In this document: in pieces, positions 1,421 to 18,135 of the stretch | Layout of the letters: every line of letters begins with the position of its first letter | Numbering within the stretch: position 1 is the stretch's first letter | Source of the DNA: a virus | Length of the DNA stretch: 40,632 nucleotides | Virus record (IMG/VR): IMGVR_UViG_3300048927_000784 | Coordinates: 1 to 40,632 of that record | Reading direction: 5' to 3' (one strand) | Made by a program: the position numbers and the translations under genes | Notes under the pieces: generated by a model | Told to the model about the DNA's origin: nothing | The model's input: the letters and a program-made list of their open reading frames with translations, nothing else | Database searches by the model: none

Positions 1421-1795
1421 ATGACGCCGTTTGGCAAGATGCTACGGCAAGAACGGAAGGACAAGGGCATGATGCTCGCCGAAATGGCTGCAGCACTCGG
1501 CATCAGTTCTCCGTATCTGAGTCAGCTGGAAACGGGCGCCAAGCCCCTAAAGGAAGGTTTCGTCGAAAAAGTTATCCGTTTTCTCGACCTTAGCCAGATG
1601 GATGCTGACGCGCTTCGACGTGCAGCTGCGAAGTCGCTCCCTGCCTCTGCTGATAGCGTCACTATCGATCTTCGGTCGAACACTTCGGTGCGCGACCGTG
1701 AGCTGGCCAGTAACCTCGCTTTGAGTTTCAACCGCCTCAAGCCGGAGACGAAGGCTCGTCTTCGCCAGATGTTGAAGGACGAGAACAATGGGTAA
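1421..1795 (+). CDS. XRE-family phage repressor
   Basis: A 124-aa protein with an N-terminal Cro/C1-type helix-turn-helix (about residues 4-60). The signature runs FGKMLRQERKDKGM, LAEMAAALGIS, SPYLSQLETGAKPL. The C-terminal half is charged and helical and may dimerise or contact the protease partner. It overlaps the next gene (ImmA-like) by 8 nt, so the two are co-translated. XRE/ImmA pairs of this kind control lysogeny in ICEBs1 and many prophages: the repressor holds early genes off until the metallopeptidase cleaves it. The gene sits behind a palindromic promoter (1328-1370), which suggests autoregulation. Its role as the prophage master repressor is inferred from position; no second repressor candidate was seen. 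Confidence 0.85.
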   Translation: MTPFGKMLRQERKDKGMMLAEMAAALGISSPYLSQLETGAKPLKEGFVEKVIRFLDLSQMDADALRRAAAKSLPASADSVTIDLRSNTSVRDRELASNLALSFNRLKPETKARLRQMLKDENNG

Positions 1796-2375
1796 CAATT
1801 TCGGCAGCGTCCAGCGACGCTCCGAGCATCAGATTGAGCACCTCGCGGCGTTGGTTCGCCGCGAGCTGGGTGTGGAGCCAGATAAGCGCTTGGCTATGCG
1901 GCCGGTCCTTGAGCTCGCGCTTGATGACATGGTCCCGGACGCTTACTGGAAAATCGAACTTGACGCGGAGATGGGGGGCGCTGAGGCGTCGACTGCTTGG
2001 CACGAGCCAGTCATCACCGTGTCCGCAAGTACCTACGCGGAGCTCTGCCGGTCAAATCCCCGCGCTCGGATGACCATCGCGCACGAAGTCGGTCATCTGC
2101 TCATGCACACGCGTAAGCCGGTTTTTCACTATCGCACCCGCACCAAGGACCAGCGCTTGGATCCAGAATGGCAGGCGGACTATTTTGCGGCGGCTCTTCT
2201 GATGCCTGCCAGTGCTTTTCGCAAAATGAAAACCGTGACTCAAGCCATGAAGGCTTTCGGCGTGAGCCGCGGCGCTGCGCTACGTCGTGCGCGCGGCCTT
2301 CGAATGCAGATTTCCGACGACCGGGCTCGCTCGTCGTCCGAAAAAAAGGGACGCAGTATGAACCGCGCCCCTTGA
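1788..2375 (+). CDS. ImmA/IrrE-family metallopeptidase
   Basis: A 195-aa zinc peptidase of the ImmA/IrrE (COG2856) family. The zinc motif HEVGH is at residues 99-103. A downstream acidic residue in the DPEWQADYFAAALLMP stretch (E127 or D131) is the expected third ligand, and this stretch is itself characteristic. The ATG at 1788 lies inside the end of the XRE gene (8-nt overlap), which indicates translational coupling. By analogy with ICEBs1 ImmA, it would inactivate the upstream repressor on a damage or induction signal; it could instead be part of a toxin-antitoxin-like pair. The C-terminal 50 residues are basic and not conserved in any way I recognise. Confidence 0.85.
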   Translation: MGNNFGSVQRRSEHQIEHLAALVRRELGVEPDKRLAMRPVLELALDDMVPDAYWKIELDAEMGGAEASTAWHEPVITVSASTYAELCRSNPRARMTIAHEVGHLLMHTRKPVFHYRTRTKDQRLDPEWQADYFAAALLMPASAFRKMKTVTQAMKAFGVSRGAALRRARGLRMQISDDRARSSSEKKGRSMNRAP

Positions 2376-3349: not shown

Positions 3350-4045
3350 CTATGCAAAGCGGAGCGATCGGGCATGGGTGACCTCTTCTGGGATCAGGAA
3401 GCTGGACTGTCGCGGACCGTCATGGTGGACGAGTTGGGTGGCTGGCCGTTCGCGATGGGTGAGGACATCGCGCAAGGCACCCTCGAGGAAATGCTGGACA
3501 GATATCTTGGTCTTTCCGACGAGGAGCGTCCTCGAATGACCATCACGATTTCCGGTGGCTTCCATCTGGAGGGCCATGAAATCGACGCGCTTGCCGCCCG
3601 TCGGAGGCGAGAGCGAGGCGGGAGCGACGGGTGAAGGGCAGCTGACCATGTGGTATCTCTGCCAATATCGGTCCCAGCGCGTCGCCGCTCCGGCCGCCAG
3701 CACCGCGCATGACAGGTCGCGACCGTCCGGCAGGCGACACCGCGCGACAATCCGATTGTAACTGGGTTCGAGCGCCAGGCATGTCAGCCGGCGGTGTAGC
3801 ACCAGTCCGGACACCGTTCGCTGGCTCGCTTGGGCCCGTCCGTCGCTGCAGACGTACCCACTGCGGCGCTGGCGACACGGTTGGGCGGACTCGAAGTCAG
3901 GCGCCTGGATCCCGGCAATACGAACCTTCGGCCCCTCGGCGCACCACAGCGGCCCGTCGCCATCGTGAACGCGTGTGACAGTGCAGGAGAACGTTTGCGG
4001 CGAACCGAGGCTGACTAGTAAAAACACGATATCGATCATGATCAT
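3350..4045 (-). CDS. Secreted thermonuclease-like protein with antisense C-terminal extension
   Basis: Residues 1-18 form a hydrophobic export signal. Residues 22-136 are a staphylococcal-nuclease-like (TNase) fold with HDGDG, VRIAGIQAPD (R42; D50 where the family usually has Glu) and YNRIVARC (R98, R102), ending RWDRYWQRY. Small sphingomonad TNases usually stop about here. This frame instead runs on for some 95 residues to 3350, and that extension lies exactly opposite the plausible plus-strand gene 3374-3634 and has no family character. The stop codon may have been lost, or the real product may be shorter. The Glu-to-Asp change may weaken activity. Possible roles are nucleotide scavenging or degradation of competing DNA. 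Confidence 0.6.
   Translation of the reverse strand: MIMIDIVFLLVSLGSPQTFSCTVTRVHDGDGPLWCAEGPKVRIAGIQAPDFESAQPCRQRRSGYVCSDGRAQASQRTVSGLVLHRRLTCLALEPSYNRIVARCRLPDGRDLSCAVLAAGAATRWDRYWQRYHMVSCPSPVAPASLSPPTGGKRVDFMALQMEATGNRDGHSRTLLVGKTKISVQHFLEGALRDVLTHRERPATQLVHHDGPRQSSFLIPEEVTHARSLRFA
3374..3634 (+). CDS. Small acidic hypothetical protein (86 aa)
   Basis: The product starts MGDLFWDQEAGLSRTVMVDE and continues with an acidic helical middle (EEMLDRYLGLSDEERPRM), a short beta-like ITISGGFHLEG stretch and a basic tail. The ATG at 3374 is preferred over an in-frame ATG at 3347 because GGAG lies 9 nt upstream. No known domain is recognised. It lies fully antisense to the C-terminal extension of the thermonuclease frame. 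The protein-like composition of this strand makes it the better call for 3374-3634, but both frames cannot be fully functional. Confidence 0.5.
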   Translation: MGDLFWDQEAGLSRTVMVDELGGWPFAMGEDIAQGTLEEMLDRYLGLSDEERPRMTITISGGFHLEGHEIDALAARRRRERGGSDG

Positions 4046-4082
4046 GGGTTAGCCGATTGAGGCGCGATCAGCGTTAGCCGGG

Positions 4083-4331
4083 GTGAGGGCTTTGAGCAGA
4101 TCGCAGCACAGTGCAGACGAGATTCGAGACGAGCTGGAGCGCGTCGCCGCCAGCTTGAGCGCGAACGACGAGGATCTGGACCTGGACTTCCGGAGACCGT
4201 TCCTCGCCGGTCCACATTGGCCGTTCGCCCACAACTGGGATGTCCGTGTCGCGGTACCTGATGGGCTGGAGGACCTTGCCTTCCGAACGATCGATGAGGT
4301 CGCTACCCGCTGGAATCTGGAAGAAAAATGA
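4083..4331 (+). CDS. Small hypothetical protein (82 aa)
   Basis: Starts at GTG 4083; a TTG at 4092 has the better-placed purine-rich site (GTGAGG) and would give MSRSQHSADEIRDELERV. The protein has an acidic amphipathic N-terminal helix (DEIRDELERVAASL), a DLDLDFRRPF stretch and a C-terminal segment ending ATRWNLEEK. Its stop overlaps the next start (ATGA at 4328-4331), so it forms a translationally coupled pair with the DUF1488-like gene. No function is assigned. It is divergent from the thermonuclease, sharing a 40-bp gap. Confidence 0.55.
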   Translation: MRALSRSQHSADEIRDELERVAASLSANDEDLDLDFRRPFLAGPHWPFAHNWDVRVAVPDGLEDLAFRTIDEVATRWNLEEK

Positions 4332-4702
4332 ACGGCCCCAACATCCATCGGCTGAGCGCTGGTACCGTCACCTTTCAGATGCCCCTCCATCAGCCGTCTT
4401 GGTCGTATGACCACGAGACCCTCAACAGGCTTGTTGACGTCGAAGTCGAGATCCGCGCGCTTATGCGGTTGGGCAGCGCAGGCTCCGCCAAGTACGTCGC
4501 GAAGCCCACGCTGGCGGGTAACCGGCAATTGGTCGAACAGGCGGCGCGGCGCATTATCGACCGGGAAGGCCCAAGCTTCGTTCAGCCGGTTCGCGTGTCG
4601 GCCAGAGACATCGCGGTCCATCTGCGCGACTGCGGGGACGAGCAAGAGGCGAGCGTCGCTCCATGCATACCCGAGTACAGCTTGCCGGTTGGCATTGGGT
4701 AG
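4328..4702 (+). CDS. DUF1488-like protein, copy A
   Basis: A 124-aa protein whose first 95 residues follow the DUF1488 layout. An N-terminal beta segment (VTFQMPLHQPSWSYDHET) leads to a V-D-V-E-V-E strand and an ALMRLG helix, then an NRQLVEQAARRIIDREGP helix and a closing VRVSARDI strand. It is related to the product at 5303-5557, which shares FQMP, SWSY, VDVEV, the AAR-IIDREGP helix and PVRV. The C-terminal 30 residues are extra. DUF1488 proteins are small and uncharacterised, and the family assignment is from memory of the pattern. It is coupled by ATGA to the gene upstream; GGAAG precedes the start. Confidence 0.6.
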   Translation: MNGPNIHRLSAGTVTFQMPLHQPSWSYDHETLNRLVDVEVEIRALMRLGSAGSAKYVAKPTLAGNRQLVEQAARRIIDREGPSFVQPVRVSARDIAVHLRDCGDEQEASVAPCIPEYSLPVGIG

Positions 4703-4744
4703 CGACGAACTGCGTCCCCAATCCTTGGCAAGGACGCCCTCGGC

Positions 4745-5116
4745 GTGACGAACGCTCCGCTTATCGCGATTATAGACGATGACGCCAATGTGCGCGAAGC
4801 ACTGGCTGATCTGCTGGAAAGCTACGGCTTTAGGACAAGCACGTTCGACGGCGCTCCCTCCTTCCTGAGTGCGCAAGTCGCTGCCGATTGCCAGTGCATC
4901 ATCACCGACCTCCAAATGGCAAACATGACTGGCATCCAACTCGCGCAGCACCTTGTGGGTGAGGCTGTGAGCACACCGATCATCCTGATAACGGCGTTCT
5001 CGACGGATGCTGTTCGACGTGCGGCTGCGGCAATCGGTGTCAGCCATCTTCTCCCTAAGCCGCTCAAACCAGTAGAACTGCTCGCCTGCATCAAAGCAGT
5101 CTTGCCCTCGGTCTGA
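4745..5116 (+). CDS. Single-domain response regulator (FixJ-type receiver)
   Basis: A 123-aa stand-alone receiver domain. It shows the acidic pocket D11-D12-D13, phospho-acceptor D55 (ITDLQM), the switch residue T83 (ITAF) and K105 (PKPLKP). The sequence most resembles the receiver of FixJ/NarL-type regulators, but no DNA-binding domain follows the stop at 5116. Such proteins act as phosphate shuttles or as binding partners of kinases and sigma-factor regulators. There is no kinase in the window, so it would have to use a host kinase. GTG start with AAGGA upstream. It lies between two related DUF1488-like genes, all on the same strand. Confidence 0.9.
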   Translation: MTNAPLIAIIDDDANVREALADLLESYGFRTSTFDGAPSFLSAQVAADCQCIITDLQMANMTGIQLAQHLVGEAVSTPIILITAFSTDAVRRAAAAIGVSHLLPKPLKPVELLACIKAVLPSV

Positions 5117-5302
5117 GCTAATGACACCTGTCCATTGCGCCGCATCATCTGCCCAGAAGCCGAACCTTCTGCTCAGCTCCGACACAGACCGCAAGAGGCG
5201 AGAAGCGGTGTGTTTATCCGGTAACTTACGCGATTCCCCTAAATCCTGTTCCTCTCCAATCGGCACCATGTACGTCTGGGAGATAACAGCAGAGGGACGT
5301 TC

Positions 5303-5557
5303 GTGGGGATTGTTGCATTTCAAATGCCCTTGGGGCGCGCGAGTTGGTCGTACTTCGGAGACAGCACGCGCAACGTAGATGTTGAAGTAGACGTTGTTGC
5401 TTTGGAACGCCTCGCTGGCTTGGTAGTCGAACACGACGTCCCCGCTGCCGTTTTCCAGATCCATCGAGCCGCAATCGAGCAAGCCGCTCGAAAAATCATC
5501 GATCGCGAAGGGCCGAACTTCGCCGAGCCCGTTCGGGTCACGGCAGCAGATCTCTGA
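5303..5557 (+). CDS. DUF1488-like protein, copy B
   Basis: An 84-aa protein aligned over nearly its full length with the first 95 residues of the product of 4328-4702. It has FQMPLGRASWSY, a VDVEVDVVALERL stretch, and the helix IEQAARKIIDREGPNF closing with PVRVTAADL. GTG start with GAGGGA just upstream. It lacks copy A's C-terminal extension. The 186 bp between the receiver gene and this start hold no convincing ORF. The pair probably arose by duplication, with the receiver gene between. Function unknown. Confidence 0.6.
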   Translation: MGIVAFQMPLGRASWSYFGDSTRNVDVEVDVVALERLAGLVVEHDVPAAVFQIHRAAIEQAARKIIDREGPNFAEPVRVTAADL

Positions 5558-5677
5558 GCTGGCGAGAACCAGCGCTCTCGTGCCAGGAGTTGGTACCGAG
5601 CGGCCTCGACGCCCGGTACCAGTGCGACCCGTTCCGCAATTTTGGGGATTGCCGAGGCACGGGGGTATAGCAACTAC

Positions 5678-5708
5678 GCGCCGGCGGGGTTGGGCATCGC
5701 CGGCGCGA
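5678..5708. terminator. Stem-loop between convergent genes
   Basis: A 10-bp perfect GC stem (CGCGCCGGCG, 5678-5687, with CGCCGGCGCG, 5699-5708) and an 11-nt loop. It lies between the plus-strand gene ending at 5557 and the minus-strand operon ending at 5757, a natural place for a bidirectional terminator. There is no U-tract, so termination is inferred from position. Confidence 0.4.
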
Positions 5709-5756
5709 GGAGCAGGTAGCTCGAAATTTAGACGACGCGACAACATGATACCCACA

Positions 5757-6032
5757 TCACGCCGCCTTGCGCTGGATGAGAAAAATGTTCCGCTCGCCGT
5801 CGTCGGGATCGCCGCCTGCTTCAGCCGACGTCCATCGGCTGCAGAAGCGGCTCTCATGCGTTTCCGGGTACATCGGCACAGGAAAGCGTCCGGCGCCCTG
5901 CACCACGACCGGAGGATTGATCTGACAGACGCCAAGTTCAGGGCCCGCCGACGGATCGCGGGTGGCATTTGCCAGCTTCGGCCCCGAGCGCGTCCACCAG
6001 GCGCAGGTAGCGCAAATCCGATCGCAGCTCAT
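5757..6032 (-). CDS. Cys4 mini-protein, last gene of the coupled operon
   Basis: A 91-aa protein with a putative metal-binding Cys set: C-x2-C (CATCAWW), then GVCQINPP, then MYPETHESRFCSRW. The layout C-x2-C ... G-[VI]-C ... PP ... [YF]-PE-x-H ... C is the same as in the product of the next gene upstream, so the two are likely paralogues. The start ATG at 6032 overlaps the previous stop (ATGA), indicating translational coupling. No enzymatic motif is visible. A zinc-binding, protein-interaction or DNA-mimic role is possible; nothing in the sequence decides. Confidence 0.7.
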   Translation of the reverse strand: MSCDRICATCAWWTRSGPKLANATRDPSAGPELGVCQINPPVVVQGAGRFPVPMYPETHESRFCSRWTSAEAGGDPDDGERNIFLIQRKAA

Positions 6033-6292
6033 TGCTTGACCTCCGCATAGCGGTTCGCCTGCTCGGAGAGCGCAACATTCATGTCAGCGAGGAACTCGCC
6101 GCACTGCTGCTCGCGGTGAACCTCCGGGAAAACTGAGGTGACGGTCACCCCGCTGACTTCGCACCAAGTCTGATTGAAAACCTTGGGCGGGTAACGCCGG
6201 CAGATGCCGACGCGTGCGGCGGAGGGCTTCGGTTCAGCCGTGGCATCCGGAGCGCCACGGCTGAGGAAGTGCGTGCAGCTCGCGCAGTTCAT
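6029..6292 (-). CDS. Cys4 mini-protein, middle gene of the coupled operon
   Basis: An 87-aa protein starting MNCASCTHFL, chosen because its ATG overlaps the stop of the upstream gene (ATGA at 6289-6292). Cys pattern: C-x2-C near the N-terminus, GICRRYPP in the middle, FPEVHREQQCGEF near the C-terminus, then a helical tail. It matches the neighbour at 5757-6032 in motif order, so the two form a tandem paralogous pair. A longer frame starting upstream is not supported, as it would run deep into the preceding gene. Confidence 0.7.
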   Translation of the reverse strand: MNCASCTHFLSRGAPDATAEPKPSAARVGICRRYPPKVFNQTWCEVSGVTVTSVFPEVHREQQCGEFLADMNVALSEQANRYAEVKQ

Positions 6293-7245
6293 GCCAGCAC
6301 CATCATGCGCTGCTCGGCGCCCTGCTTTGAGAGGTCGATACCGCCGATGCAGGCGAGATCCTCGATGCAGTCCCACAGCAACTGTTCGGTCGCATCCTTG
6401 TGACCCAGGATGCCCGACGTAAAATCAGGATGAGCAGGGTCAACCACCGCACGATCCGACCAAGTTTGGCAGGCAGTATGCTGGAATGCGACGCGTAGTT
6501 TCGCCACCACGCCTTCGATCGTTTGAGCGCGGAGCTGGTGAATCTCATCGTCGAACGGGCCGCACAAGTTCTCCCAATCAGGAACTCGATCGGTGAGGTC
6601 ATGTCGCATGTCGAGCAAGTACGACATGCCCTGCCGGACTCCTGCAAACGCAGTGAGGAGTTCGGCGTCGGCGTTGGCGTTGGCGTTGGCGTTGGCTGCG
6701 CCGGTGTCGCCGAATGCAAGCGCACGCGCCAACGGCGAGCGGGAAAGCAGGGCACTGCGGAGAGCCACTGCGAAGCGCTCTTCAGGAACGGTGCTGCCTT
6801 CCAGCTCAACCCAGGACTTCAGCCCCTTACCGAGGGGCGGGGCATCTAGCGTGTCCAGCAGTTCGAAGTACGTCATCAGATCTTGATCAGCGGCCGTCAG
6901 GCAGGCCGTCGCGAGAAGACGATCCATGCCCGCAACCTCCCGCTCGCACAGCGCGATGAAGGAATCGTCGGACTCGCCTTCGTGGGACCAATACGCGATG
7001 GCAGTGTCTAGCCAGGGGAGGAACGCGGCGAGCATCGCCGGCGACAGGTCTCGGTGAGCGATCTGCCGAGCGTTCTCGTAATTGCAGCCTGCGAGGTCAT
7101 CGAGAGTGGCGTCAGTGATGCTGGCAGGCAGGACATCGAGCGCTGCGCGGATGCTCACGACCGCGGTTGCGCCGGGAAACGAGAGCACCGGGGTGCGGAA
7201 TGCGAGAGGTGAGGAGGCGGTGATCTGACCGTACTGGAACGTCAT
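6289..7245 (-). CDS. Hypothetical protein with Ala-Asn repeat linker, first gene of the coupled operon
   Basis: A 318-aa protein starting MTFQYGQITA at 7245; AAGGAG lies about 7 nt upstream, so this start is preferred to an upstream in-frame one at 7278. The sequence is mostly helical and acidic with no signal peptide or membrane segment. Near residue 190 is an Ala-Asn dipeptide repeat encoded by a GGCGTT hexamer array (6664-6699), which probably joins two domains. It is followed by two coupled Cys4 genes. Upstream, at 7283-7301, is an operator-like element also found at 8222-8240. No function is recognised; it is probably an early phage gene. Confidence 0.65.
   Translation of the reverse strand: MTFQYGQITASSPLAFRTPVLSFPGATAVVSIRAALDVLPASITDATLDDLAGCNYENARQIAHRDLSPAMLAAFLPWLDTAIAYWSHEGESDDSFIALCEREVAGMDRLLATACLTAADQDLMTYFELLDTLDAPPLGKGLKSWVELEGSTVPEERFAVALRSALLSRSPLARALAFGDTGAANANANANADAELLTAFAGVRQGMSYLLDMRHDLTDRVPDWENLCGPFDDEIHQLRAQTIEGVVAKLRVAFQHTACQTWSDRAVVDPAHPDFTSGILGHKDATEQLLWDCIEDLACIGGIDLSKQGAEQRMMVLA
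6664..6699. repeat. GGCGTT hexanucleotide tandem repeat
   Basis: Four perfect GGCGTT copies (6670-6693) flanked by one-step variants GGCGTC (6664-6669) and GGCTGC (6694-6699). It lies inside the gene 6289-7245 and encodes Ala-Asn dipeptides on the minus strand. Hexamer slippage would change linker length without shifting the frame. Confidence 0.8.
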
Positions 7246-7282
7246 GTGCTTGCTCCTTTTGCCGACAACCGGCGGCAAGAGA

Positions 7283-7301
7283 GATAGATATACCTATATC
7301 T
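7283..7301. promoter_or_regulatory. Operator-like element, copy 1
   Basis: GATAGATATACCTATATCT, 38 bp upstream of the start at 7245. It matches the element at 8222-8240 in 16 of 19 positions, in the same orientation. It is itself partly palindromic (AGATAT at one end, ATATCT at the other). It is inferred to be bound by one of the regulators encoded nearby (7340-8155 or 8258-8431). Confidence 0.5.
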
Positions 7302-7339
7302 TCCGTCAAGCGGCAACGTGTACAGCTCTTTCCGTGCGA

Positions 7340-8155
7340 TTAGCTGCTCGACTCTTGCACGTCCCGATGATCTCGCGGGCCAAGAGCCTTGCGTGCAGCG
7401 TCGACCACGTCGAACCCGTGCGCACGGCTGACAACTGACTCGTGCGTGATGAGTCCATCGTAGTGCTCGGATGCATCCTGGAGAGCTCTGCCTCGCGCCC
7501 GCCGCTCTCGCTCCCACTCTCCCAACTCGTCAGCGAAAATCTCCGGCCCGAGCCCTAGCGGCTCCAAAGAGGCCCATAGCAGGGCCAAAAGAGAATCAAC
7601 TTCGATGCAGATACTGGTGGCGAGACGATTTTTGGTCAGAAAGCTGATATATCGATGTCTCCCAATCACAGTTTCGGTTGGATCTTCCCCAGACTCTCGC
7701 AGCCAATCAGAGAACTCCTCGTCACTTAGGAATGCTTCTGTGATCTCCTCGCTTGTGAAAGTGTCTATGAACACGTGCATGTGGTCTGATCGATCGACTT
7801 TGAGCTCTGAGAGGGCGTCGAGTTGCACCAAGCAGTAGTGTAGGTGTTCTTCGCCATTCGCTCTGCATATAGCGGTTTCTACAACGGCATCTTTGATAGC
7901 TTGCCAGCCAGTGAGGACCACCTTTTGCGCCCGCTCCGGGGTGAGGCCGACATGCAGGAGTTTGAGCATGAACAGCAGTTGGTAGACCTGAGTGGCGCCG
8001 TACGCTGCCCGACCTCCGCGGCCGACGTTTACCCCCTCAGGGAAACCCATCTTTTGCCACTGCTTCAAACGCGCTTGGAAAGCATCAGCACGGTCTGGCG
8101 CAATCTGGCTGACGAATGCGAGAACGAATTGCGTTTGGGCGAAAGTGAGGGACAT
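7340..8155 (-). CDS. MerR-like helix-turn-helix regulator, 271 aa
   Basis: The N-terminal ~85 residues resemble a MerR-type winged helix. A helix ARLKQWQKMGFP is followed by a Gly-rich wing (NVGRGGRAAYG) and a helical YQLLFMLKLLHVGLTPERA segment that reads like the MerR dimer-linker entry. The rest (about 90-271) is acidic and helical with no known domain. GGAG lies 6 nt before ATG 8155. It is divergent from the small HTH gene at 8258 across a 102-bp gap holding a palindromic operator, which suggests this pair forms a regulatory switch for the minus-strand early operon downstream. Confidence 0.65.
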   Translation of the reverse strand: MSLTFAQTQFVLAFVSQIAPDRADAFQARLKQWQKMGFPEGVNVGRGGRAAYGATQVYQLLFMLKLLHVGLTPERAQKVVLTGWQAIKDAVVETAICRANGEEHLHYCLVQLDALSELKVDRSDHMHVFIDTFTSEEITEAFLSDEEFSDWLRESGEDPTETVIGRHRYISFLTKNRLATSICIEVDSLLALLWASLEPLGLGPEIFADELGEWERERRARGRALQDASEHYDGLITHESVVSRAHGFDVVDAARKALGPRDHRDVQESSS

Positions 8156-8221
8156 GGATTCTCCAGTTTCGCGAAGGGTTATGTGTACCTCTTGACCGCG
8201 TCAACGGAAGGGTTGTAAAGG

Positions 8222-8240
8222 GATAGGTATACCTCTCTCT
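8222..8240. promoter_or_regulatory. Operator-like element, copy 2
   Basis: GATAGGTATACCTCTCTCT lies between the divergent genes 7340-8155 and 8258-8431. It contains the perfect 10-bp palindrome AGGTATACCT (8225-8234) and shares 16 of 19 bases with the element at 7283-7301. A site between two divergent regulators that recurs before a third transcript is the expected pattern for a shared operator. Confidence 0.55.
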
Positions 8241-8257
8241 TACAAGGACATCTCGGC

Positions 8258-8431
8258 ATGGACTCGTTGGACATTCTCAAGGGAGCCACTGCTGCGGCGA
8301 CGTACACGGGGCTCACGCGCCGCGCGATCTATCACCTCGTCGAAAACGACAGAATCCCGGTGAAGCGGGTCGGCCGTTCTCTGTTCTTCCGGAAGGCGGA
8401 ACTTGAGCGAGTCTTCTCACCCGGCGCCTGA
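8258..8431 (+). CDS. 57-residue excisionase-like HTH protein
   Basis: ATG 8258 to TGA 8429-8431. The product reads as a complete excisionase/AlpA-type winged helix: GATAAATYTGLTRRAIYH (helix-turn-helix), LVENDRIPVKRVGRSLFF (wing) and a closing RKAELERVF helix. It has essentially no sequence outside the domain. The length suits phage Xis and Cox-type proteins. Located divergently from the MerR-like gene, it is a candidate excisionase or early-lytic switch protein; the AlpA-like product of 2964-3191 is the other candidate. The start has only a weak AAGGA site, 11 nt upstream. Confidence 0.75.
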   Translation: MDSLDILKGATAAATYTGLTRRAIYHLVENDRIPVKRVGRSLFFRKAELERVFSPGA

Positions 8432-8437
8432 TCGCAG

Positions 8438-8671
8438 CTAATCGTTGCTCGCCACATCCCGCCGCAGCACGAACACGAGCCCAAGCATGAGTGTCTGCGG
8501 CTCGCCGTACAGCACCGACGAGAATCCATCCTCAAGCTGGTCGAGGAAGTGGTGAACCGCTTCGTTCGGCATCTGGGCCGCTCGCATGCTGTCCACGATC
8601 GAGGCCATGACCACGCCGATCGCGCTGATCGTGAGATAGCCCATGTTCCGCGCTTTTCTGTCTTTCGTCAT
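8438..8671 (-). CDS. Small hypothetical protein (77 aa)
   Basis: ATG 8671 gives MTKDRKARNMGYLTISAIGV, followed by helical segments (SIVDSMRAAQMPNEAVHHFL) and a hydrophobic TLMLGLVFVL near the C-terminus. A GTG at 8698 would add nine residues. The AGGAG site is very close to ATG 8671. It converges on the HTH gene ending at 8431. No domain is recognised. It is called because its composition is protein-like and no better frame covers the stretch. Confidence 0.5.
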   Translation of the reverse strand: MTKDRKARNMGYLTISAIGVVMASIVDSMRAAQMPNEAVHHFLDQLEDGFSSVLYGEPQTLMLGLVFVLRRDVASND

Positions 8672-8688
8672 GCTCCTGGAGTTACCCG

Positions 8689-9156
8689 ATGAATGCACCG
8701 TACATCCACGGGCGCCGACGGACTCTCACCGCGTCAGGCGCGATTGATGCGCAGAACAAGGTCCTCTCCGCGATCAAGGAAGAGGACGGTGCTACCTGGA
8801 TCGATATTGGCCGGGTGCTGGGCAAGTCGGACGATCGCGCGGCAGCGTATGGCAACACCGCGTCCGCGATCGACCTTCCGACCTTCCTTGCTGGCTGTCA
8901 CGAGTGGGGCGCTCGCTTCGCTGATCCCTTGCTCGCGCTGGTCGGCGGCAAGTGGGCGGACGTGGGTGCCTATTGCACCAGCGATGAGAAGGCGGCGCTG
9001 ACGCTCGCTTCCCTGCTGCCCGCCGTTATCGAGGTTGAGGCGGATGGCCTGACCGAGGCGCGGGAATTGCTGCCGCATGAGGCGCTGATCCGCCGCGTAC
9101 ATACCCTCACTTCGGCATGGCTGGAGATGATCGCGGCTGAGCGGGGGCGCGCCTGA
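8689..9156 (+). CDS. Phage early protein, unknown (155 aa)
   Basis: A helical soluble protein with TWIDIGRVLGKSDDRAAAYG near residues 36-55, which looks like a helix-turn-helix-type or tetramerising segment. The following part (TFLAGCHEWGARFADPLLAL) and the position between immunity and replication genes are reminiscent of CII-like activators, but the family cannot be assigned by eye. GGAG lies about 8 nt upstream of ATG 8689. It converges with the antitoxin gene at 9180-9464. Confidence 0.65.
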   Translation: MNAPYIHGRRRTLTASGAIDAQNKVLSAIKEEDGATWIDIGRVLGKSDDRAAAYGNTASAIDLPTFLAGCHEWGARFADPLLALVGGKWADVGAYCTSDEKAALTLASLLPAVIEVEADGLTEARELLPHEALIRRVHTLTSAWLEMIAAERGRA

Positions 9157-9179
9157 TGCGTCGCCCCCAGACGGCATAC

Positions 9180-9464
9180 TCAGGCGTGCGCGACCGCCAA
9201 CTTGATTCCCATCGCTTCGAGTACCTTCATCAGGGTCTCCAGCGTCGGATTGCCGCCCTTGTCCAGCGCTCGGTAGAGCTGCTGGCGCTTGATGCCGGTC
9301 TTCTCTGCGATGTCGGCCATTCCTTTCGCACGAGCAACGACCCCGATTGCGTGCGAGATGTAGGCGGGATCGCCGCTCTCAAGCGCATCGTTCAGAAACT
9401 CGGTCTGAGCCTCTTCGGTGTCGAGATGCTCCGCCGCATCGAAGCGGCTAAGTTCCAGTGCCAT
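9180..9464 (-). CDS. HigA-type antitoxin
   Basis: A 94-aa addiction-module antidote protein. The N-terminus (FDAAEHLDTEEAQTEFLNDA) is the usual linker of this subfamily. A helix-turn-helix follows (GMADIAEKTGIKRQQLYRAL), ending with GGNPTLETLMKVLEAMGIKL. It is preceded by the toxin gene with a 42-bp gap, the reversed toxin-first order typical of HigBA. A GAGGAGGG site lies upstream. It would neutralise the toxin and repress the shared promoter, stabilising the prophage or acting as anti-phage cargo. Confidence 0.85.
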   Translation of the reverse strand: MALELSRFDAAEHLDTEEAQTEFLNDALESGDPAYISHAIGVVARAKGMADIAEKTGIKRQQLYRALDKGGNPTLETLMKVLEAMGIKLAVAHA

Positions 9465-9506
9465 CGTTACCTGTCCCTCCTCGGACGCGGAACCGTTACC
9501 ATTCGC

Positions 9507-9800
9507 TCAGTCCAACTGAGCCGCCATTTCCTTTGCCTTCGCGATATCCCGCCCCTGCGAGGACTTGTCGCCGCCGCACAGCAGGATCACCAACTCGCCG
9601 CCGCGCCTGGTGAAGTAGACGCGATAGCCGGGGCCGTAGTCGATCCGCAGCTCGGACACGCTCCCACCGACCGACTTCACATCGCCCATCAACCCGAAGG
9701 CGAGCCGATCGATACGAGCCGCGATCCGAGCACGGGCGCGAATGTCCCGCAGCTCCTGCAGCCATACGGTGAATTCGGCAGTCTGCTGAACTTCGGCCAT
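9507..9800 (-). CDS. RelE/HigB-family toxin
   Basis: About 97 aa, of the subfamily paired with the GraA/HigA-like antidote proteins. The pattern is TAEFTVWLQELRDIRARARI near the N-terminus, then a DVKSVG, ELRIDYGPGYRVYFTRRGG core, and a C-terminal GGDKSSQGRDIAKAKEMA. The basic and aromatic residues in RIDYGPGYRVYF lie where HigB-type ribosome-dependent mRNA interferases hold the active site. ATG 9800 is preferred; an in-frame ATG at 9809 falls inside the likely -10 element. No ribosome site is seen, so translation may be leaderless. Confidence 0.85.
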   Translation of the reverse strand: MAEVQQTAEFTVWLQELRDIRARARIAARIDRLAFGLMGDVKSVGGSVSELRIDYGPGYRVYFTRRGGELVILLCGGDKSSQGRDIAKAKEMAAQLD

Positions 9801-13776: not shown

Positions 13777-14028
13777 ATGAGCGCAGATGACGGTGAAGCC
13801 GGTCAGGAGATCATCAAAAACGTCGAGTTGGCTCTTGGCGATGGATCTACCGTCTCTGTGTATCTCAGAGGTCGCAACGAGCCCGTCTCGGTGGTTCGCG
13901 TGCACCGCACGCCGCTCACTGTGCGGCTGGAAGGTACCGGCAACGCGGTCCACGACGTGACGTACAGCGCTGTTGTTGGAGCGAAGTACTCTCCTCGTGG
14001 ACTGCGCGTCGTCGACGGTATGGCGTAG
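13777..14028 (+). CDS. Small hypothetical protein (83 aa)
   Basis: ATG 13777 has a good GAGGAG site 9 nt upstream. An acidic N-terminus (MSADDGEAGQEIIKNVELAL) is followed by a beta-rich body with DGSTVSVYLRG, VSVVRVHRTPLTVRLEG and VVGAKYSPRG. The alternating strands suggest a small beta-barrel. The 170 bp upstream (13606-13776) hold no gene but do hold GTTAA/TTAAC repeats around 13665-13679 (GGTTAACC at 13672) next to an AATAAT at 13656, which could be a promoter and operator. Function unknown. Confidence 0.6.
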   Translation: MSADDGEAGQEIIKNVELALGDGSTVSVYLRGRNEPVSVVRVHRTPLTVRLEGTGNAVHDVTYSAVVGAKYSPRGLRVVDGMA

Positions 14029-14149: not shown

Positions 14150-14461
14150 ATGATAGAGAACCGACATCGACAGGCGGCACGCGATTCCGATTTCTTAAAG
14201 GTCTTGGGGGGCCGCACTCGCATCCTCCTACTTCGGGAACTCTTCGACGGCGAGAAGTCAGTCGGCGAGCTTGCCGCTGCAATCGGCGTGCTGGAGACGG
14301 CGGTTTCGCAGCAGCTTACCATGCTGAAAGCAGCGGGATTCGTCTCAACCCGCCGTGAAGGGCAGAAGATCTTCTATTCGCTGGCGAGTGACGATGCGCG
14401 GCAGCTTCTCGAGGCAGTTCGAGAGTTGACTACGAAGGTCGAGGTAGAGGCTAAAGGGTAG
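14150..14461 (+). CDS. ArsR-family regulator 1 (no cysteines)
   Basis: A 103-aa winged-helix repressor-type protein. The pattern is LKVLGGRTRILLLRELFDGE, then VGELAAAIGVLETAVSQQLT as recognition helices, then LKAAGFVSTRREGQKIFYSL as the wing. There is no cysteine anywhere, so the classic arsenic or metal-binding ELCVCDL site is absent; it must sense something else or act constitutively. ATG 14150 gives the natural N-terminus (a TTG lies one codon earlier). It faces the PEP-CTERM gene at 14828-15421 and is related to the ArsR at 17359-17685, which faces the second PEP-CTERM gene in mirror image. Confidence 0.88.
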   Translation: MIENRHRQAARDSDFLKVLGGRTRILLLRELFDGEKSVGELAAAIGVLETAVSQQLTMLKAAGFVSTRREGQKIFYSLASDDARQLLEAVRELTTKVEVEAKG

Positions 14462-14497
14462 AGGGAAACTGCGACGCAGCGCTCTGTCCGAGGACGC

Positions 14498-14719
14498 TTA
14501 GTCCGCGGCACGCTTAGGTGGGAGCTCCCGGAGGAAGCTAGGACGCTCTTCGACTGCGCTCGGTAGATCAGAGAGCAGAGCCCGCGTCGCCTGCATCAAG
14601 CCCGACAGCCTGTGTACGCACTCTGCCAGCTTCGGATCATTCAAATCTCCAGCTAAAGCGTCCAGCTTCGCCAAGTGCGCCGCAGCATCCATCGGCCCAG
14701 CAGGTGTGTTGGCGGTCAT
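14498..14719 (-). CDS. Small helical protein (73 aa), unknown
   Basis: ATG 14719 with AAGG about 8 nt upstream. The product reads MDAAAHLAKLDALAGDLNDP followed by LAECVHRLSGLMQATRALLSD, an amphipathic helical hairpin, and ends basic (PPKRAAD). It has no signal peptide or known domain. It lies between ArsR 1 and the PEP-CTERM gene with no counterpart on the mirrored side. Confidence 0.55.
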   Translation of the reverse strand: MTANTPAGPMDAAAHLAKLDALAGDLNDPKLAECVHRLSGLMQATRALLSDLPSAVEERPSFLRELPPKRAAD

Positions 14720-14767
14720 GTTGCTGCCTTCAGTTAGAGCGATCCAACAAAGCTCTGAACGACGCCC

Positions 14768-14802
14768 AAAAGAAAAAGGGCGACCCCGAGCCGGGGCCGC
14801 CC
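14768..14802 (-). terminator. Rho-independent terminator of PEP-CTERM gene 1
   Basis: Read on the minus strand, an 11-bp stem with one mismatched pair (arms 14802-14792 and 14788-14778, 3-nt loop) is followed directly by TTTTTCTTTT (14777-14768). This is a canonical intrinsic terminator 25 bp after the PEP-CTERM stop. A related but weaker hairpin follows the second PEP-CTERM gene. Confidence 0.85.
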
Positions 14803-14827
14803 TCTTTCAAATCACGCAGATTGCCTC

Positions 14828-15421
14828 TTAGGCGTACGTGACCTTGACGCTGCGGCGACGACGCACGGCTGCACCAGCCATGCCGGCACCGGCGATCAGC
14901 ATGCCCCAAGCGGCCGGCTCGGGCACGCCCGACGGCGGCGAAGCGAGCGTGTAGCTGCCCGACACGGCGGAGCCAGCGCCACCGGTCTGGGTGAAGCTGA
15001 AGGTCAGCGATGCCGCGCCCGGATCGAAGCCCGCCAGGGCAACCGACGGAGTGAAGGTGCCGAGCGTGTACAGCGAGACGACGCTGCTGGTGCCAACAGT
15101 CGACAGGTCCACCTTCGAGATGGTGCCGACGAACGTGCCATATGCACCGCTGAGGGTGACAGCCGAACCCCAGGTGGCAGTGACGCTGGAGAGGTTAAAC
15201 GGAGTGAAGAACGAGATGGGGCTCAGGTCGCCAGTGCCATTGCTGGTGGCGATCGTTCCGCTGTTGGTGAAGGTGGTACCGGCGCCGATGACCGGGGTCG
15301 AGCTGCCGACATTGAACACGGCGCCAGCGAGCGTGCCGACGATGGTGGCAGCCGAGGCGGCCGAAGGAGCTACAATCGCTGCCGTGGTGGCAGCAAGCAA
15401 CGCGAAAACACGAGTGCGCAT
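14828..15421 (-). CDS. PEPxxWA-CTERM surface protein 1
   Basis: A 197-aa exported protein. Residues 1-25 form a signal peptide (MRTRVFALLAATTAAIVAPS, AASA-ATI cleavage). The mature part is a Ser/Thr/Gly-rich beta domain. The C-terminus has the exosortase sorting tag: VPEPAAWGMLIAGAGMAG with the PEP motif, a transmembrane helix and a final RRRR cluster. Exosortase/EpsH systems in sphingomonads cut such tags and release or anchor the protein at the outer surface, often with exopolysaccharide. The start is chosen for the signal peptide and AGGGGA site. It is about two thirds identical by eye and equal in length to the product of 16496-17089. No exosortase is in the window, so it would depend on the host's. 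Confidence 0.92.
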   Translation of the reverse strand: MRTRVFALLAATTAAIVAPSAASAATIVGTLAGAVFNVGSSTPVIGAGTTFTNSGTIATSNGTGDLSPISFFTPFNLSSVTATWGSAVTLSGAYGTFVGTISKVDLSTVGTSSVVSLYTLGTFTPSVALAGFDPGAASLTFSFTQTGGAGSAVSGSYTLASPPSGVPEPAAWGMLIAGAGMAGAAVRRRRSVKVTYA

Positions 15422-15488
15422 ACATTCCCCTACTTTGGTTAAAGACCGGTTAATGCCGGCAAAAGAGCACTCTCTGGAAGCCCGCACC

Positions 15489-15502
15489 TTGTCAATCACA
15501 AA
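15489..15502 (-). promoter_or_regulatory. Conserved upstream box of PEP-CTERM gene 1
   Basis: On the minus strand TTTGTGATTGACAA, 12 of 14 bases the same as the box at 16415-16428. The TTGACA inside it lies 68 nt from the start codon, exactly as in copy 2. It resembles a -35 hexamer, but no TATAAT-like -10 sits at the right distance, which may mean an activator or an alternative sigma factor is required. Confidence 0.55.
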
Positions 15503-16414
15503 TTGTTGCACTTGCGAGATGTGACTGTTCAATCTCGACTATATGTCTAAGATTCTAAGCAAATTTTTTTCTTGCCCTACCTGCGCTTCAATGAAGGTCA
15601 TTAGCCGCCAAACGTTTGCAGTAGCAGCAATTTTTTCGCGGAGGGTGAGAACTCCTGTGGACAGTCGCTTGTTCCGATCTTATCTAATTCTAGCCGTCCC
15701 CTCCCGTGCGCAATCGGGCCCTAAAATCGAAGTGATTCGTTCTTTCGATTGGGGGCGGCAACTCTCGCTCTCTATGAAGCCTGATTGTGGCCGCTGCTGT
15801 GCGGTTTTTCGGCAAGAGGCCGCGGCGATCATCACGTAGATCATCGATTAGGAGTGCCTAGCTCATTTGCTTTCTGAATCGGGCATGAGTAAATCGGCCC
15901 GGTCACTCCTTCTCGACTGCACTCGATCCACACCTCCGAGTGCGTGAGCCGACGGGCTTGCCGAGTTGGAGTGACACGCGCAGATCTTGGTTCTGCGCTG
16001 CCTCGGTCCCCACTACTGTGCTTGGTATTGGTCTACTCACGTCCCAGGAGCAGGCGAGCGCCCTGAACCGCAGATGATCGTGCGCCCATCGCTGACAGGT
16101 GGGAATGCGGCAACATCACCTAAGGGTGAGAACGTCCAGTGCGTCTACGTCTAAGCCGCCTCTGATGGCGGCATGCGCATGGCGAATCACAAAGCACAGT
16201 GCAGGTCCGCTCCGAGTCGAATTTCGATGGAAATGCGCTTCCAGCGAGGATCAAAATTTAGAGTGGTAGTCGATCAGCGATGTGCAAACGTTGCAACTTA
16301 CGGTCGGTTCGAGGCGGTATAGCACGCAGCGCAGATCGTGGTCTCCGGAATTTATCATGACTTAATATCAATTTGCGTGCGCACTCTCGTTAGAGTCCCC
16401 TGGCGAGGGTATAT

Positions 16415-16428
16415 TTTGCAATTGACAA
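16415..16428 (+). promoter_or_regulatory. Conserved upstream box of PEP-CTERM gene 2
   Basis: TTTGCAATTGACAA. The TTGACA (16422-16427) is followed by 68 nt and then ATG 16496, the same spacing as in copy 1. Nearby GGTTAACGCCGG (16450-16461) also recurs as GGTTAATGCCGG near copy 1, but in the opposite orientation relative to the gene. Confidence 0.55.
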
Positions 16429-16495
16429 TCAACGTCCTTCTGCAAAGTTGGTTAACGCCGGAACCAGCCGGTGGCTAAGTAAAGCAGGAGACACT

Positions 16496-17089
16496 ATGCG
16501 CACTCGTGTTATTGCGCTGCTTGCTGCTGCCTCAGCAGCAGTTGCGGCTCCAACGGCAGCCTCGGCCGCCACTCTTGTCGGCACGCTGACCGGCGCTATC
16601 TTTAACATCGGCAGCTCGACCCCGGTCATCGCTGCCGGTAGTACGTTCACGAACAGCGGGTCGCTCATCACCAACAACGGCACAGGCGACTTCAGCCCTG
16701 TTTCATTCTTCACGCCGTTCGCTCTGTCGACCGTCACGGCTGCCAACGGTTCCGTTGTCACTCTCTCGGGCCTATTCGGCACTTTCGTTGGTTCTGTAGG
16801 AAGTCTCAGCGTCACGAACTCGAAGCTGACCAATATGGTGACGCTCTACACGTACGGCACCTTCACGCCGTCGGGCACGCTCGCAAGCTACGACCCGGGC
16901 GCGGCGTCGGTATTTTTCACCTTCACGCAAGGCACTACGCCTGGTTCGATCGTATCGGGCAGCTACACGTTGTCCTCGCCGCCGAGCCCGGTTCCCGAGC
17001 CGGCTGTTTGGGGACTGGCGATCGCTGGTGCCGGTATGGCTGGCGCTGCCGTTCGTCGTCGCCGCCGCGAGAAGGTCGCTGCTGCCTGA
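16496..17089 (+). CDS. PEPxxWA-CTERM surface protein 2
   Basis: A 197-aa paralogue of the product of 14828-15421, transcribed in the opposite direction. The signal peptide starts MRTRVIALLAAASAAVAAPT and cleaves after AASA. The mature domain shares GTGD-SP-SFFTPF and GTFTP and DPGAAS blocks with copy 1. The C-terminal exosortase tag is VPEPAVWGLAIAGAGMAGAA followed by RRRRR-E-K. AGGAGA lies 5 nt before ATG 16496. The central part (about residues 85-130) is the most divergent, as expected if it is the exposed or selected region. It is likely exported and processed by the host exosortase. Confidence 0.92.
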   Translation: MRTRVIALLAAASAAVAAPTAASAATLVGTLTGAIFNIGSSTPVIAAGSTFTNSGSLITNNGTGDFSPVSFFTPFALSTVTAANGSVVTLSGLFGTFVGSVGSLSVTNSKLTNMVTLYTYGTFTPSGTLASYDPGAASVFFTFTQGTTPGSIVSGSYTLSSPPSPVPEPAVWGLAIAGAGMAGAAVRRRRREKVAAA

Positions 17090-17114
17090 ACCACAGCAAT
17101 CGTCGATCGGGAGG

Positions 17115-17136
17115 GGCGGCCTTTGTCGAGGTCGCC
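17115..17136 (+). terminator. Hairpin after PEP-CTERM gene 2
   Basis: GGCGGCC (17115-17121) pairs with GGTCGCC (17130-17136), with one G-U pair and an 8-nt loop, followed by ATTTCT. It is similar in sequence to the terminator at 14768-14802 (shared GGGCGGCC and GGTCGCC) but lacks its T-tract, so it is probably a weakened homologous terminator. Confidence 0.5.
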
Positions 17137-17358
17137 ATTTCTGGATGAAGCGGCTTTGCCCATGTAGCAATTGCATGGACGCGGACGTAATCGACTTGAC
17201 AGTCGCTGCCAAATAGCGCATGAAAAACACGCTGGCGGACTGCGCCTGCACATTCGGCTCGGTGGCTTCGGCTTCCGGGCCGTTTCTCGTTTAAGTGGAT
17301 CGCTGATACCGATGCGCCCGCCTCAACCTGTGTGGGGCGTTCGGACCTAGTTCGAAGG

Positions 17359-17685
17359 CTACTCAGCTAAGGTTGGCGTACCTGCCTCTGCCCTTTCGCG
17401 CTGCATCGCCAATGCTGCTTCCACCAAGTGCTTCGCTGCTGGGTTCGAGATAGAGTAAAATCTAAGCTGGCCATCTCTTCGCTTAGAGACAAACCCTGCG
17501 CCACGAAGAACGGCGAGTTGCTGCGAAACTGCAGTGTCTGACTTTTTGACGTTCTCGGCCAGTCGCCCGACCGACATCTCGCCATCGAGCAGAGCCACCA
17601 GCAAAGTTAGTCGATGGCGGCCGGATACCAGCTTGAGAAGCGAGGATGCTTCATCCGCGGAGTTGCGTAGGTCTTCAAGGGGCAT
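17359..17685 (-). CDS. ArsR-family regulator 2 (no cysteines)
   Basis: A 108-aa winged-helix protein. LLKLVSGRHRLTLLVALLDGE is the N-terminal helix block. Then come VGRLAENVKKSDTAVSQQLA as the recognition region and LRGAGFVSKRRDGQLRFYSI as the wing. It is related to ArsR 1 (shared TAVSQQL, L-AGFVS-RR-GQ-FYS) and likewise has no cysteine. It points towards PEP-CTERM gene 2, mirroring ArsR 1 and PEP-CTERM gene 1. No strong ribosome site is seen. The 129 bp between its start and the HNH gene show no clear operator. Confidence 0.88.
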   Translation of the reverse strand: MPLEDLRNSADEASSLLKLVSGRHRLTLLVALLDGEMSVGRLAENVKKSDTAVSQQLAVLRGAGFVSKRRDGQLRFYSISNPAAKHLVEAALAMQRERAEAGTPTLAE

Positions 17686-17814
17686 GCGGGTGATAGCTCG
17701 CGCTTAGGTGAGCGCCCCATGGAGCACACGATCGAGCGACGACGCAAGACCATCTGCCACGCTGCAGCGGGTTGTTAACCGGGTGAAAACGTTCTCTTCC
17801 TGGATCGTGCATGC

Positions 17815-18135
17815 ATGCCTACACGTCCTCCTCAGCTGCGGCAGAAGGCACAGCGTCCCTCAAGCAACTGGGATCGACGCAAGAGCCGACACGAGCGCGG
17901 CTATGGGCGTGAGCATGAAGCAATGCGCCGCATCCTGCTGGATGAGGAGCCGCTCTGCCGCGCCTGCTTGGGCAAGGAGCCGCCGCAGTACGCGCCGAGC
18001 ACGATCGCTGATCACATCCGCCCAAAGGCTGAAGGCGGCACGGACGAGCGCGACAACTATCAGGGGCTCTGCTCCCCGTGCAGCAAGGCGAAGACAGCAC
18101 GAGAGAGCGCCAGGGCGCGTCGCCGTGCTCGCTGA
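17815..18135 (+). CDS. HNH endonuclease (packaging-associated)
   Basis: A 106-aa HNH nuclease. The zinc-ribbon cysteines are CRAC (about residues 48-51) and CSPC near residue 86. The HNH core is IADHIRPKAEGGTDERDNYQ with D-H, then N, then the closing CSPC. Small HNH proteins directly upstream of terS act with terminase at cos in HK97-like phages. The basic ends (RRKSRHERGYG; RARRRAR) suit DNA binding. It is the first gene of the late plus-strand run. Confidence 0.9.
   Translation: MPTRPPQLRQKAQRPSSNWDRRKSRHERGYGREHEAMRRILLDEEPLCRACLGKEPPQYAPSTIADHIRPKAEGGTDERDNYQGLCSPCSKAKTARESARARRRAR

Follow-up and report, generated by a model that had tools for sequence, protein, structure and literature searches.

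The virus record IMGVR_UViG_3300048927_000784 was analysed over its full length of 40,632 bp (from here: the window). Its left side encodes an integrase, a DnaB-like helicase and primosomal proteins, and its right side HNH, terminase, portal, protease, capsid and tape-measure proteins. It represents a temperate siphophage of Sphingomonas. A prophage of Sphingomonas sp. NFR04 (contig NZ_FORV01000008.1; from here: the NFR04 phage) is piecewise colinear with the window from end to end, and L075 is a metagenomic relative. Between the replication and packaging modules of the window lie four genes in the order ArsR-A (+), PEP-A (−), PEP-B (+) and ArsR-B (−), which encode two PEP-CTERM proteins and two regulators of the ArsR family. 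An initial annotation, made from the sequence alone, had seen in them an inverted duplication of an ArsR-controlled module inside the phage. Here we report that PEP-A and PEP-B have the signals of a gene family that is spread over Sphingomonas genomes and are probably self-contained cargo genes of host origin. The main features are given below by window coordinates and strand.

14828 to 15421, minus strand: PEP-A, a PEP-CTERM protein of 197 amino acids (PF07589, NF035944; 93% identity in the NFR04 phage)
16496 to 17089, plus strand: PEP-B, a PEP-CTERM protein of 197 amino acids (PF07589)
15491 to 15495, minus strand: TTGAC box of PEP-A, starting at −74, common to non-phage copies
16422 to 16426, plus strand: TTGAC box of PEP-B, starting at −74
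15438 to 15453, minus strand: TTAA-N7-TTAAC site in the PEP-A leader, the sole full match in the window
14778 to 14802, minus strand: terminator hairpin of PEP-A, family-wide
17114 to 17136, plus strand: terminator hairpin of PEP-B, family-wide
14150 to 14461, plus strand: ArsR-A, a winged-helix ArsR-family regulator free of cysteine (68% identity in the NFR04 phage)
17359 to 17685, minus strand: ArsR-B, an ArsR-family regulator free of cysteine, divergent from the late operon (73% identity in the NFR04 phage, 85% in L075)

PEP-A and PEP-B align without gaps, with 134 of 197 residues (68%) and 419 of 594 nucleotides (nt) identical, and their divergent start codons are 1,074 nt apart; the initial annotation had described exactly this, two proteins of equal length, about two thirds identical and diverging over 1.07 kb. 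Its assignment of both to the exosortase substrates also stood, as both exceed the cut-off of Pfam model PF07589 (28.2 and 28.0 bits; cut-off 20.7). The narrower label PEPxxWA-CTERM fits PEP-A, which scored 37 bits against NCBIfam model NF035944 (cut-off 35), and was not upheld for PEP-B, which stayed under it at 28.4 bits. Like the members of the PEP-CTERM/exosortase (EpsH family) class, both proteins end in a PEP motif, a hydrophobic stretch and a basic cluster of arginines at the very C-terminus; they differ from it by their location in a phage. The N-termini are signal-like by eye, and the predicted model has a helix at residues 4–16 with a predicted local distance difference test score (pLDDT) below 50. 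Overall the model of PEP-A is beta-rich at low confidence (pLDDT 59.8), and no fold can be named for it (best Foldseek E 0.085 in the PDB and 0.048 among viral proteins; best Z 8.0). A sequence search of the PDB with the PEP alignment gave nothing better than E 0.15. Between the window and the NFR04 phage the ratio of nonsynonymous to synonymous substitution rates (dN/dS) of PEP-A was estimated by a simple counting method at 0.107, with dS 0.387, which suggests that purifying selection has acted on the gene.

The same-distance upstream box (68 nt before the ATG) and the related terminator hairpin that the initial annotation had noticed at both genes are real, with TTGAC starting at −74 in either case. 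They are, however, not peculiar to the phage. Leaders were compared for 14 of 15 PEP copies (3 phage and 11 non-phage, with G123 left out). All but one of the 14, and 10 of the 11 non-phage ones, have a TTGAC whose first base is at −72 to −75, while none of 121 other predicted genes of the PEP loci has it at −78 to −71. The terminator hairpin, aligned for 13 of the 15 copies (G123 and G004a left out), is 98.6% paired, and 0 of 500 shuffles matched its pairing percentage or its covariation score, a result that gives no strict probability because the copies are related. Since box and terminator also occur at non-phage copies, they are the family's own signals and not marks of an inverted duplication within the phage.

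Two further elements lie in the leaders. A GCCGG/CCGGT-type hairpin between TTGAC and the start codon, with 95.7% of cells paired over 14 PEP homologues, is a possible leader element of the Sphingomonas PEP-CTERM family. The TTAA-N7-TTAAC site, which we take to be a CtrA-type consensus, occurs once in the window against 0.01 expected; the stretch of NFR04 that was searched also has a single one, with a different N7, at the corresponding place of the PEP-A leader. In the window the site overlaps the family's GTTAACC element, so that a chance match is less improbable than it appears. Some members of the PEP-CTERM class have a sigma-54/PrsR site; PEP-A and PEP-B have the TTGAC box instead. The sigma-54 motif TGGC-N8-TGC, tried in simple forms only, was absent from the 200 nt upstream of all 16 PEP genes examined.

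The 295 genomes of the NFR04 genus were searched with a profile built from the phage PEP proteins, at most 11 candidates being scored per genome; 13 full-length copies were detected, distributed over 9 of the genomes. Twelve of them lie outside the NFR04 prophage, one elsewhere in the NFR04 genome itself, and their neighbours include genes for a TonB receptor, an RND pump, a K+ transporter and an AsnC regulator. In the flanks of these 12 loci no phage gene of the window was matched except PEP. Relatives of the paralogues in non-phage genomes were what the initial annotation had expected to speak against its view, and this was found in part, 12 of 13 copies being in non-phage places; the other objection that it foresaw, a block outside the phage ends, does not apply, with integrase and replication genes on one side and HNH, terminase, portal and capsid genes on the other. 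Each of four Sphingomonas genomes has 14–20 matches to the PEP-CTERM tail.

How PEP-A and PEP-B came to face away from each other was approached by self-comparison, by comparison with the NFR04 phage and L075, and by trees. Two stretches of the block were relevant here:

15764 to 17194, no strand: PEP-B-bearing segment without a counterpart at the corresponding place in the NFR04 phage
15693 to 15763, no strand: non-coding block of 71 nt with 96% identity in the NFR04 phage

Clear inverted similarity within the block is confined to 14840–15460 against 16457–17077, that is, to the PEP gene and 39 nt upstream of it. For the ArsR genes there are two short and weak inverted DNA matches, of 34 nt (E 0.067) and 23 nt (E 0.82). 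The NFR04 phage has ArsR-A, PEP-A and ArsR-B and no counterpart of PEP-B, which is thus most simply a later addition in the lineage of the window. The sequence of L075 follows that of the window across ArsR-B as far as position 17213 and diverges from there; no PEP gene was found in this record, whose contig ends about 750 nt past the divergence and is for this reason uninformative on PEP-A. The dS values between the window and the NFR04 phage are 1.3–1.4 for the ArsR genes and 0.31–1.03 for other genes, and the higher ArsR values fit a mosaic and not one travelling module. As for the DNA between the PEP genes, the 71-nt block is better kept between the two phages than its flanks, and among the 295 genomes NFR04 alone matches it. 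For the origin of 15765–16440 the same genomes gave no informative match (one hit of 37 nt, E 8e-4).

A first tree with 15 rows did not settle the placement of PEP-A and PEP-B. A second one, limited to 12 of the 15 copies (G123, G004a and G002b left out), grouped PEP-B with the other phage copies at the moderate support of 84/90, and the approximately unbiased (AU) test did not reject an alternative in which PEP-A and the orthologous NFR04 gene branch with three of the non-phage copies (p-AU 0.312). PEP-B may thus be either a copy of PEP-A or a second capture. Two clearly separate captures, also considered, were not established, with the tree joining both genes and the AU test leaving alternatives.

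The scenario of the initial annotation, an in-phage inverted duplication of one ancestral ArsR-PEP unit with either PEP gene under the control of its own ArsR, appears very improbable in the light of these data. Its appeal comes from the mirror-image gene order, the relatedness of the ArsR proteins, both of which are kept by the window and the NFR04 phage, the position of PEP-B beside the phage copies of PEP-A in the tree (84/90) and the weak inverted matches within the ArsR genes. Yet the clear similarity ends 39 nt upstream of the PEP genes, the ArsR matches span just 34 and 23 nt, ArsR-A and ArsR-B are 43–49% identical as compared with 68% for PEP-A and PEP-B, box and terminator are family-wide, and the NFR04 phage combines two ArsR genes with one PEP gene. 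In addition, ArsR and PEP genes are convergent and therefore have no promoter region in common. A duplication of the whole unit is rejected in view of the self-comparison, the family-wide signals and the NFR04 arrangement, and the claim that it was kept since the ancestor is not supported.

That each PEP gene is faced by a related ArsR protein devoid of cysteine, as the initial annotation stated, was borne out. ArsR-A and ArsR-B are both over the cut-offs of HTH_5 and NF033788, and their local alignment over 88 columns scored 195, whereas the best of 500 shuffles scored 60. Among solved structures, those of NolR, BigR, HlyU and PDB entry 6o8l, presumably SqrR, come closest to them. The winged helix and these best relatives connect them to the BigR/SqrR/HlyU/NolR branch; they scored 71.1 and 65.7 bits against the BigR model with its cut-off of 155 and lack the cysteine of BigR and SqrR. 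A conserved sensor cysteine is characteristic of ArsR/SmtB metalloregulators and of the BigR/SqrR thiol sensors. In the aligned stretch the cysteine of BigR and 6o8l is replaced by arginine in ArsR-A and by valine in ArsR-B. Relatives of the two proteins occur in 149 of the 295 genomes (E 1e-14), and the corresponding cysteine is present in 17 of 19 ArsR relatives inspected by eye, with tryptophan in the other two (L122 and L126); the L126 gene adjoins a GyrI-like gene (locus L144). PADLOC hits of the ArsR proteins to Csa3, CasR, CARF and the PDC-M05A regulator models were dismissed as helix-turn-helix resemblance.

Control of the PEP genes by these regulators is a different matter and was not supported. 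No relative of ArsR-A or ArsR-B was found at E 1e-4 in any of the 12 non-phage PEP loci. A search at E 1e-3 that also included two host ArsR proteins as queries found none in 48 viral pieces of 1.1–19.8 kb with PEP-CTERM genes (46 pieces selected by a sequence pattern, plus L160 and L161; see below), so that phage PEP genes are not characteristically paired with ArsR. At one non-phage copy (G229a, locus L102) an ArsR-type gene does lie upstream of PEP, but it is a different one. ArsR-A and ArsR-B are more likely phage regulators than PEP regulators.

The region to the right of ArsR-B offers a candidate target:

17686 to 17814, no strand: ArsR-B/HNH intergenic region, which holds GTGAAAACGTTCT, invariant in the three phages aligned
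17815 to 18135, plus strand: HNH endonuclease gene, upstream of the terminase genes

ArsR-B is divergent from HNH-TerS-TerL, its promoter side adjoining the late operon, and would thus be placed to act on that operon; for ArsR-A this is less certain. Seven relatives scanned (L113, L114, L116, L117, L118, L160 and L161) carry a phrog_6386 transcription antiterminator upstream of HNH, directly or with 1–3 genes between, and none was detectable in the window or the NFR04 phage. Both ArsR proteins might hence be late-gene or lysis-lysogeny regulators which replaced the antiterminator, the PEP genes being merely located between them. We regard this as rather unlikely. The divergent arrangement, the antiterminator pattern, a small helix-turn-helix gene of L113 on the same strand and side as ArsR-B, and the invariance of GTGAAAACGTTCT are in its favour. 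On the other hand, six relatives covering the stretch (L115, L163, L167, L170, L171 and L172) have neither a detectable antiterminator nor ArsR-A or ArsR-B, so that its lack here does not single out ArsR as the replacement, and an antiterminator may have escaped detection. The replacement idea is weakened to that extent. Five of these six stem from a scan of 16 IMG/VR relatives (L157–L172), in which five records matched (L159, L160, L161, L162 and L166), five had no match despite at least 7.4 kb before the terminase (L163, L167, L170, L171 and L172), two are the ArsR-bearing L075 and NFR04 phage (L157 and L158, respectively), and four end near the site (L164, L165, L168 and L169).

An ArsR operator shared by the PEP leaders could not be established. 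Inverted-repeat searches of four intergenic stretches turned up a pair of short palindromes ahead of HNH and a single 13-nt pair at 15704–15758, with no element shared by all four stretches. The heptamer AAACGTT is found ahead of both PEP genes and also of HNH, with five matches at four places of the window, a figure reached by 3 of 100 shuffles. It is absent upstream of PEP-A in the NFR04 stretch and is for this reason a lead only. The longer AAACGTTCTC is present at 17785–17796, before the late operon, and at 3987–3996, near the 5′ end of the left-arm gene 3350–4045; the NFR04 phage has AAACGTT at apparently corresponding places, and AAACGTTCTC is a possible phage operator candidate.

Taken as a whole, these observations are best explained if PEP-A and PEP-B are host-derived, self-contained cargo genes, or morons, with host-type signals, whose products are sorted by the host exosortase and change the envelope of the lysogen; we assign this reading a probability of about 0.58. 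As the comparison shows, each gene has the promoter-region box, the leader and the terminator that characterise a family of solitary PEP-CTERM genes in Sphingomonas, and its expression from the prophage would not depend on phage control. The proteins would be exported by Sec and retained by the C-terminal helix, as can be expected from their class, and the host exosortase would cut or transfer them, so that they come to lie at the surface or in the exopolysaccharide matrix. Export followed by exosortase sorting is the fate proposed for the PEP-CTERM class in the available text of Haft et al. 2006 (PMC1569441). An exosortase (PF09721 over the cut-off) is present in 17 of 17 genomes tested, including NFR04 with its sister prophage. 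In the lysogen sorting of the PEP proteins might affect aggregation, matrix binding or phage adsorption. PEP-B would have arisen next to ArsR-B by copying or by another capture, in either case of nothing more than the PEP unit.

Several points weigh against this reading. A sigma-70 promoter of the form scanned for was found at neither PEP-A nor PEP-B, and the covariation of the leader hairpin was not above that of shuffles. Loss of PEP-B in the relatives is possible instead of its gain, and the AU result leaves room for other histories of PEP-A. For the role of the ArsR proteins, the ArsR-type gene at L102 and the six relatives devoid of a detectable antiterminator have to be counted here as well.

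Phage morons, or lysogenic conversion genes, are extra genes in prophage genomes. PEP-A and PEP-B resemble them as host-derived genes between modules that have their own signals and vary among close relatives. The segment 15764–17194 with PEP-B is present in the window and absent between the corresponding genes of the NFR04 phage. A moron would also be expected to have its own promoter and terminator; the TTGAC box and the terminator hairpin are conserved, and the sigma-70 scan revealed no full promoter at the PEP genes. The exosortase-substrate class was not found among described morons in the open-access literature searched. Host-type signals and the lack of a PEP-B counterpart in NFR04 would also suit neutral hitch-hikers from the host, an improbable alternative given the dN/dS of PEP-A and the recurrence of the class in viral records.

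An effect on the envelope or matrix of the lysogen is the likeliest use of the PEP proteins, by analogy with their class. Two more specific forms of it can be considered. In the first, which is possible at rather less than even odds, the proteins promote aggregation or matrix retention of the lysogen, like flocculation-associated PEP-CTERM proteins elsewhere. Overexpression of PepA in Aquincola rescues floc formation and raises the amount of bound polymer, according to the accessible part of that report (PMC9850573), and the HD-GYP and GGDEF genes of a related prophage (L115, see below) might likewise act on the biofilm state. Against it, PEP-A and PEP-B match no flocculation model at E 0.01 and have no sigma-54 site of the searched form upstream. 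In the second, which we consider still more doubtful, a beta-rich protein anchored in the envelope covers a surface receptor, or competes for it, and gives superinfection exclusion or altered adsorption. The surface class, the prophage location, the recurrence of PEP-CTERM proteins in viral records and the low-confidence beta-rich model are consistent with it; the existence of non-phage paralogues points to an ordinary function on the host surface, and the fold of PEP-A cannot be named.

The slot between the replication and packaging modules and the PEP-CTERM class both recur in related records. L160 (IMGVR_UViG_2818991466_000001) encodes a PEP-CTERM protein of 234 residues between antiterminator and HNH, the same slot as in the window (NF035944, 47.8 bits; PF07589 match). 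L161 (IMGVR_UViG_3300012842_000018) has another PEP-CTERM gene (167 residues from the likely start) on the opposite strand within the late module, where it separates the capsid side from the major tail gene. The similarity of both proteins to PEP-A and PEP-B is limited to 27–29 tail residues. In L115, a prophage of genome G060, HD-GYP and GGDEF genes occupy 6535–8961 between the replication and packaging modules.

A scan of IMG/VR for DNA encoding VPEPA[TS]WAM gave 47 matches in 46 records, all 47 located 28–46 residues before the end of the open frame; 46 satisfied the tail expression, and L256 with its 41-residue tail was added by eye. These records are predictions, some of which may include host sequence. 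Clustering of the 47 frames gave 40 clusters at 90% identity and, at 25% identity over 60% of the length, 28 groups; these figures are rough, because each frame was read between two stop codons and contig ends truncate some of them. Of the 46 pattern loci, 18 hand-picked and mostly interior ones were compared with PHROGs through 19 neighbour proteins. Thirteen of these loci gave matches, to portal, baseplate, tape measure, major tail, endolysin and helicase genes among others, and for the remaining 5 the neighbour chosen had no match. All nine phage-locus PEP proteins scanned with NCBIfam pass NF035944. Four phage PEP proteins had no match among 50,697 INPHARED records. At L274, positions 4935–9529, a PEP-CTERM protein is encoded together with an adenylosuccinate-synthetase-like gene (phrog_1211) and a helicase; L239 encodes an identical PEP protein, and L274 is possibly a virulent phage with PEP-CTERM cargo.

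Tentatively, at somewhat below even odds, these records may reflect repeated capture of differing PEP-CTERM proteins by tailed phages, chiefly of Sphingomonadales, for which the exosortase route would provide a phage-encoded surface dressing of infected or lysogenic cells, and thus a general and undescribed class of envelope-conversion genes, with the two-copy phage of the window as one example. No description of phage-encoded PEP-CTERM proteins was found among the papers listed in searches of the open-access literature, including the accessible parts of PMC12642866 and PMC4886054, a scope outside which most subscription papers fall. The nearest statement, in the available text of a study on a hot-spring virus community, concerns 13 transferred proteins of the exosortase-linked TIGR03118 family (PMC11003980).

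Other parts of the window contain the following features:

13777 to 14028, plus strand: o83, a small phage open reading frame (90% identity in the NFR04 phage)
14498 to 14719, minus strand: o73, a small open reading frame between ArsR-A and PEP-A (48% identity over 61 residues in the NFR04 phage)
1788 to 2375, plus strand: M78/IrrE-type peptidase gene adjoining a helix-turn-helix repressor-like gene near the integrase, with PADLOC matches to capP and RmrA
3350 to 8155, minus strand: four left-arm open reading frames of 231, 639, 329 and 271 amino acids, to which scans of PHROGs, NCBIfam and PADLOC assigned no named function

o73 matched no family in Pfam, PHROG or PADLOC, and no named RNA family reached its gathering score in the window.

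The locus illustrates that mirror-image gene order and shared boxes need not mean a duplicated regulatory module. PEP-CTERM proteins are numerous and poorly understood on the surfaces of environmental Gram-negative bacteria. The prophage gene of NFR04, present in an isolate, is a direct genetic handle on their function. If several phage lineages carry PEP-CTERM genes, then phages would profit from remodelling of the matrix or envelope, or these proteins would matter in the contact between phage and host.

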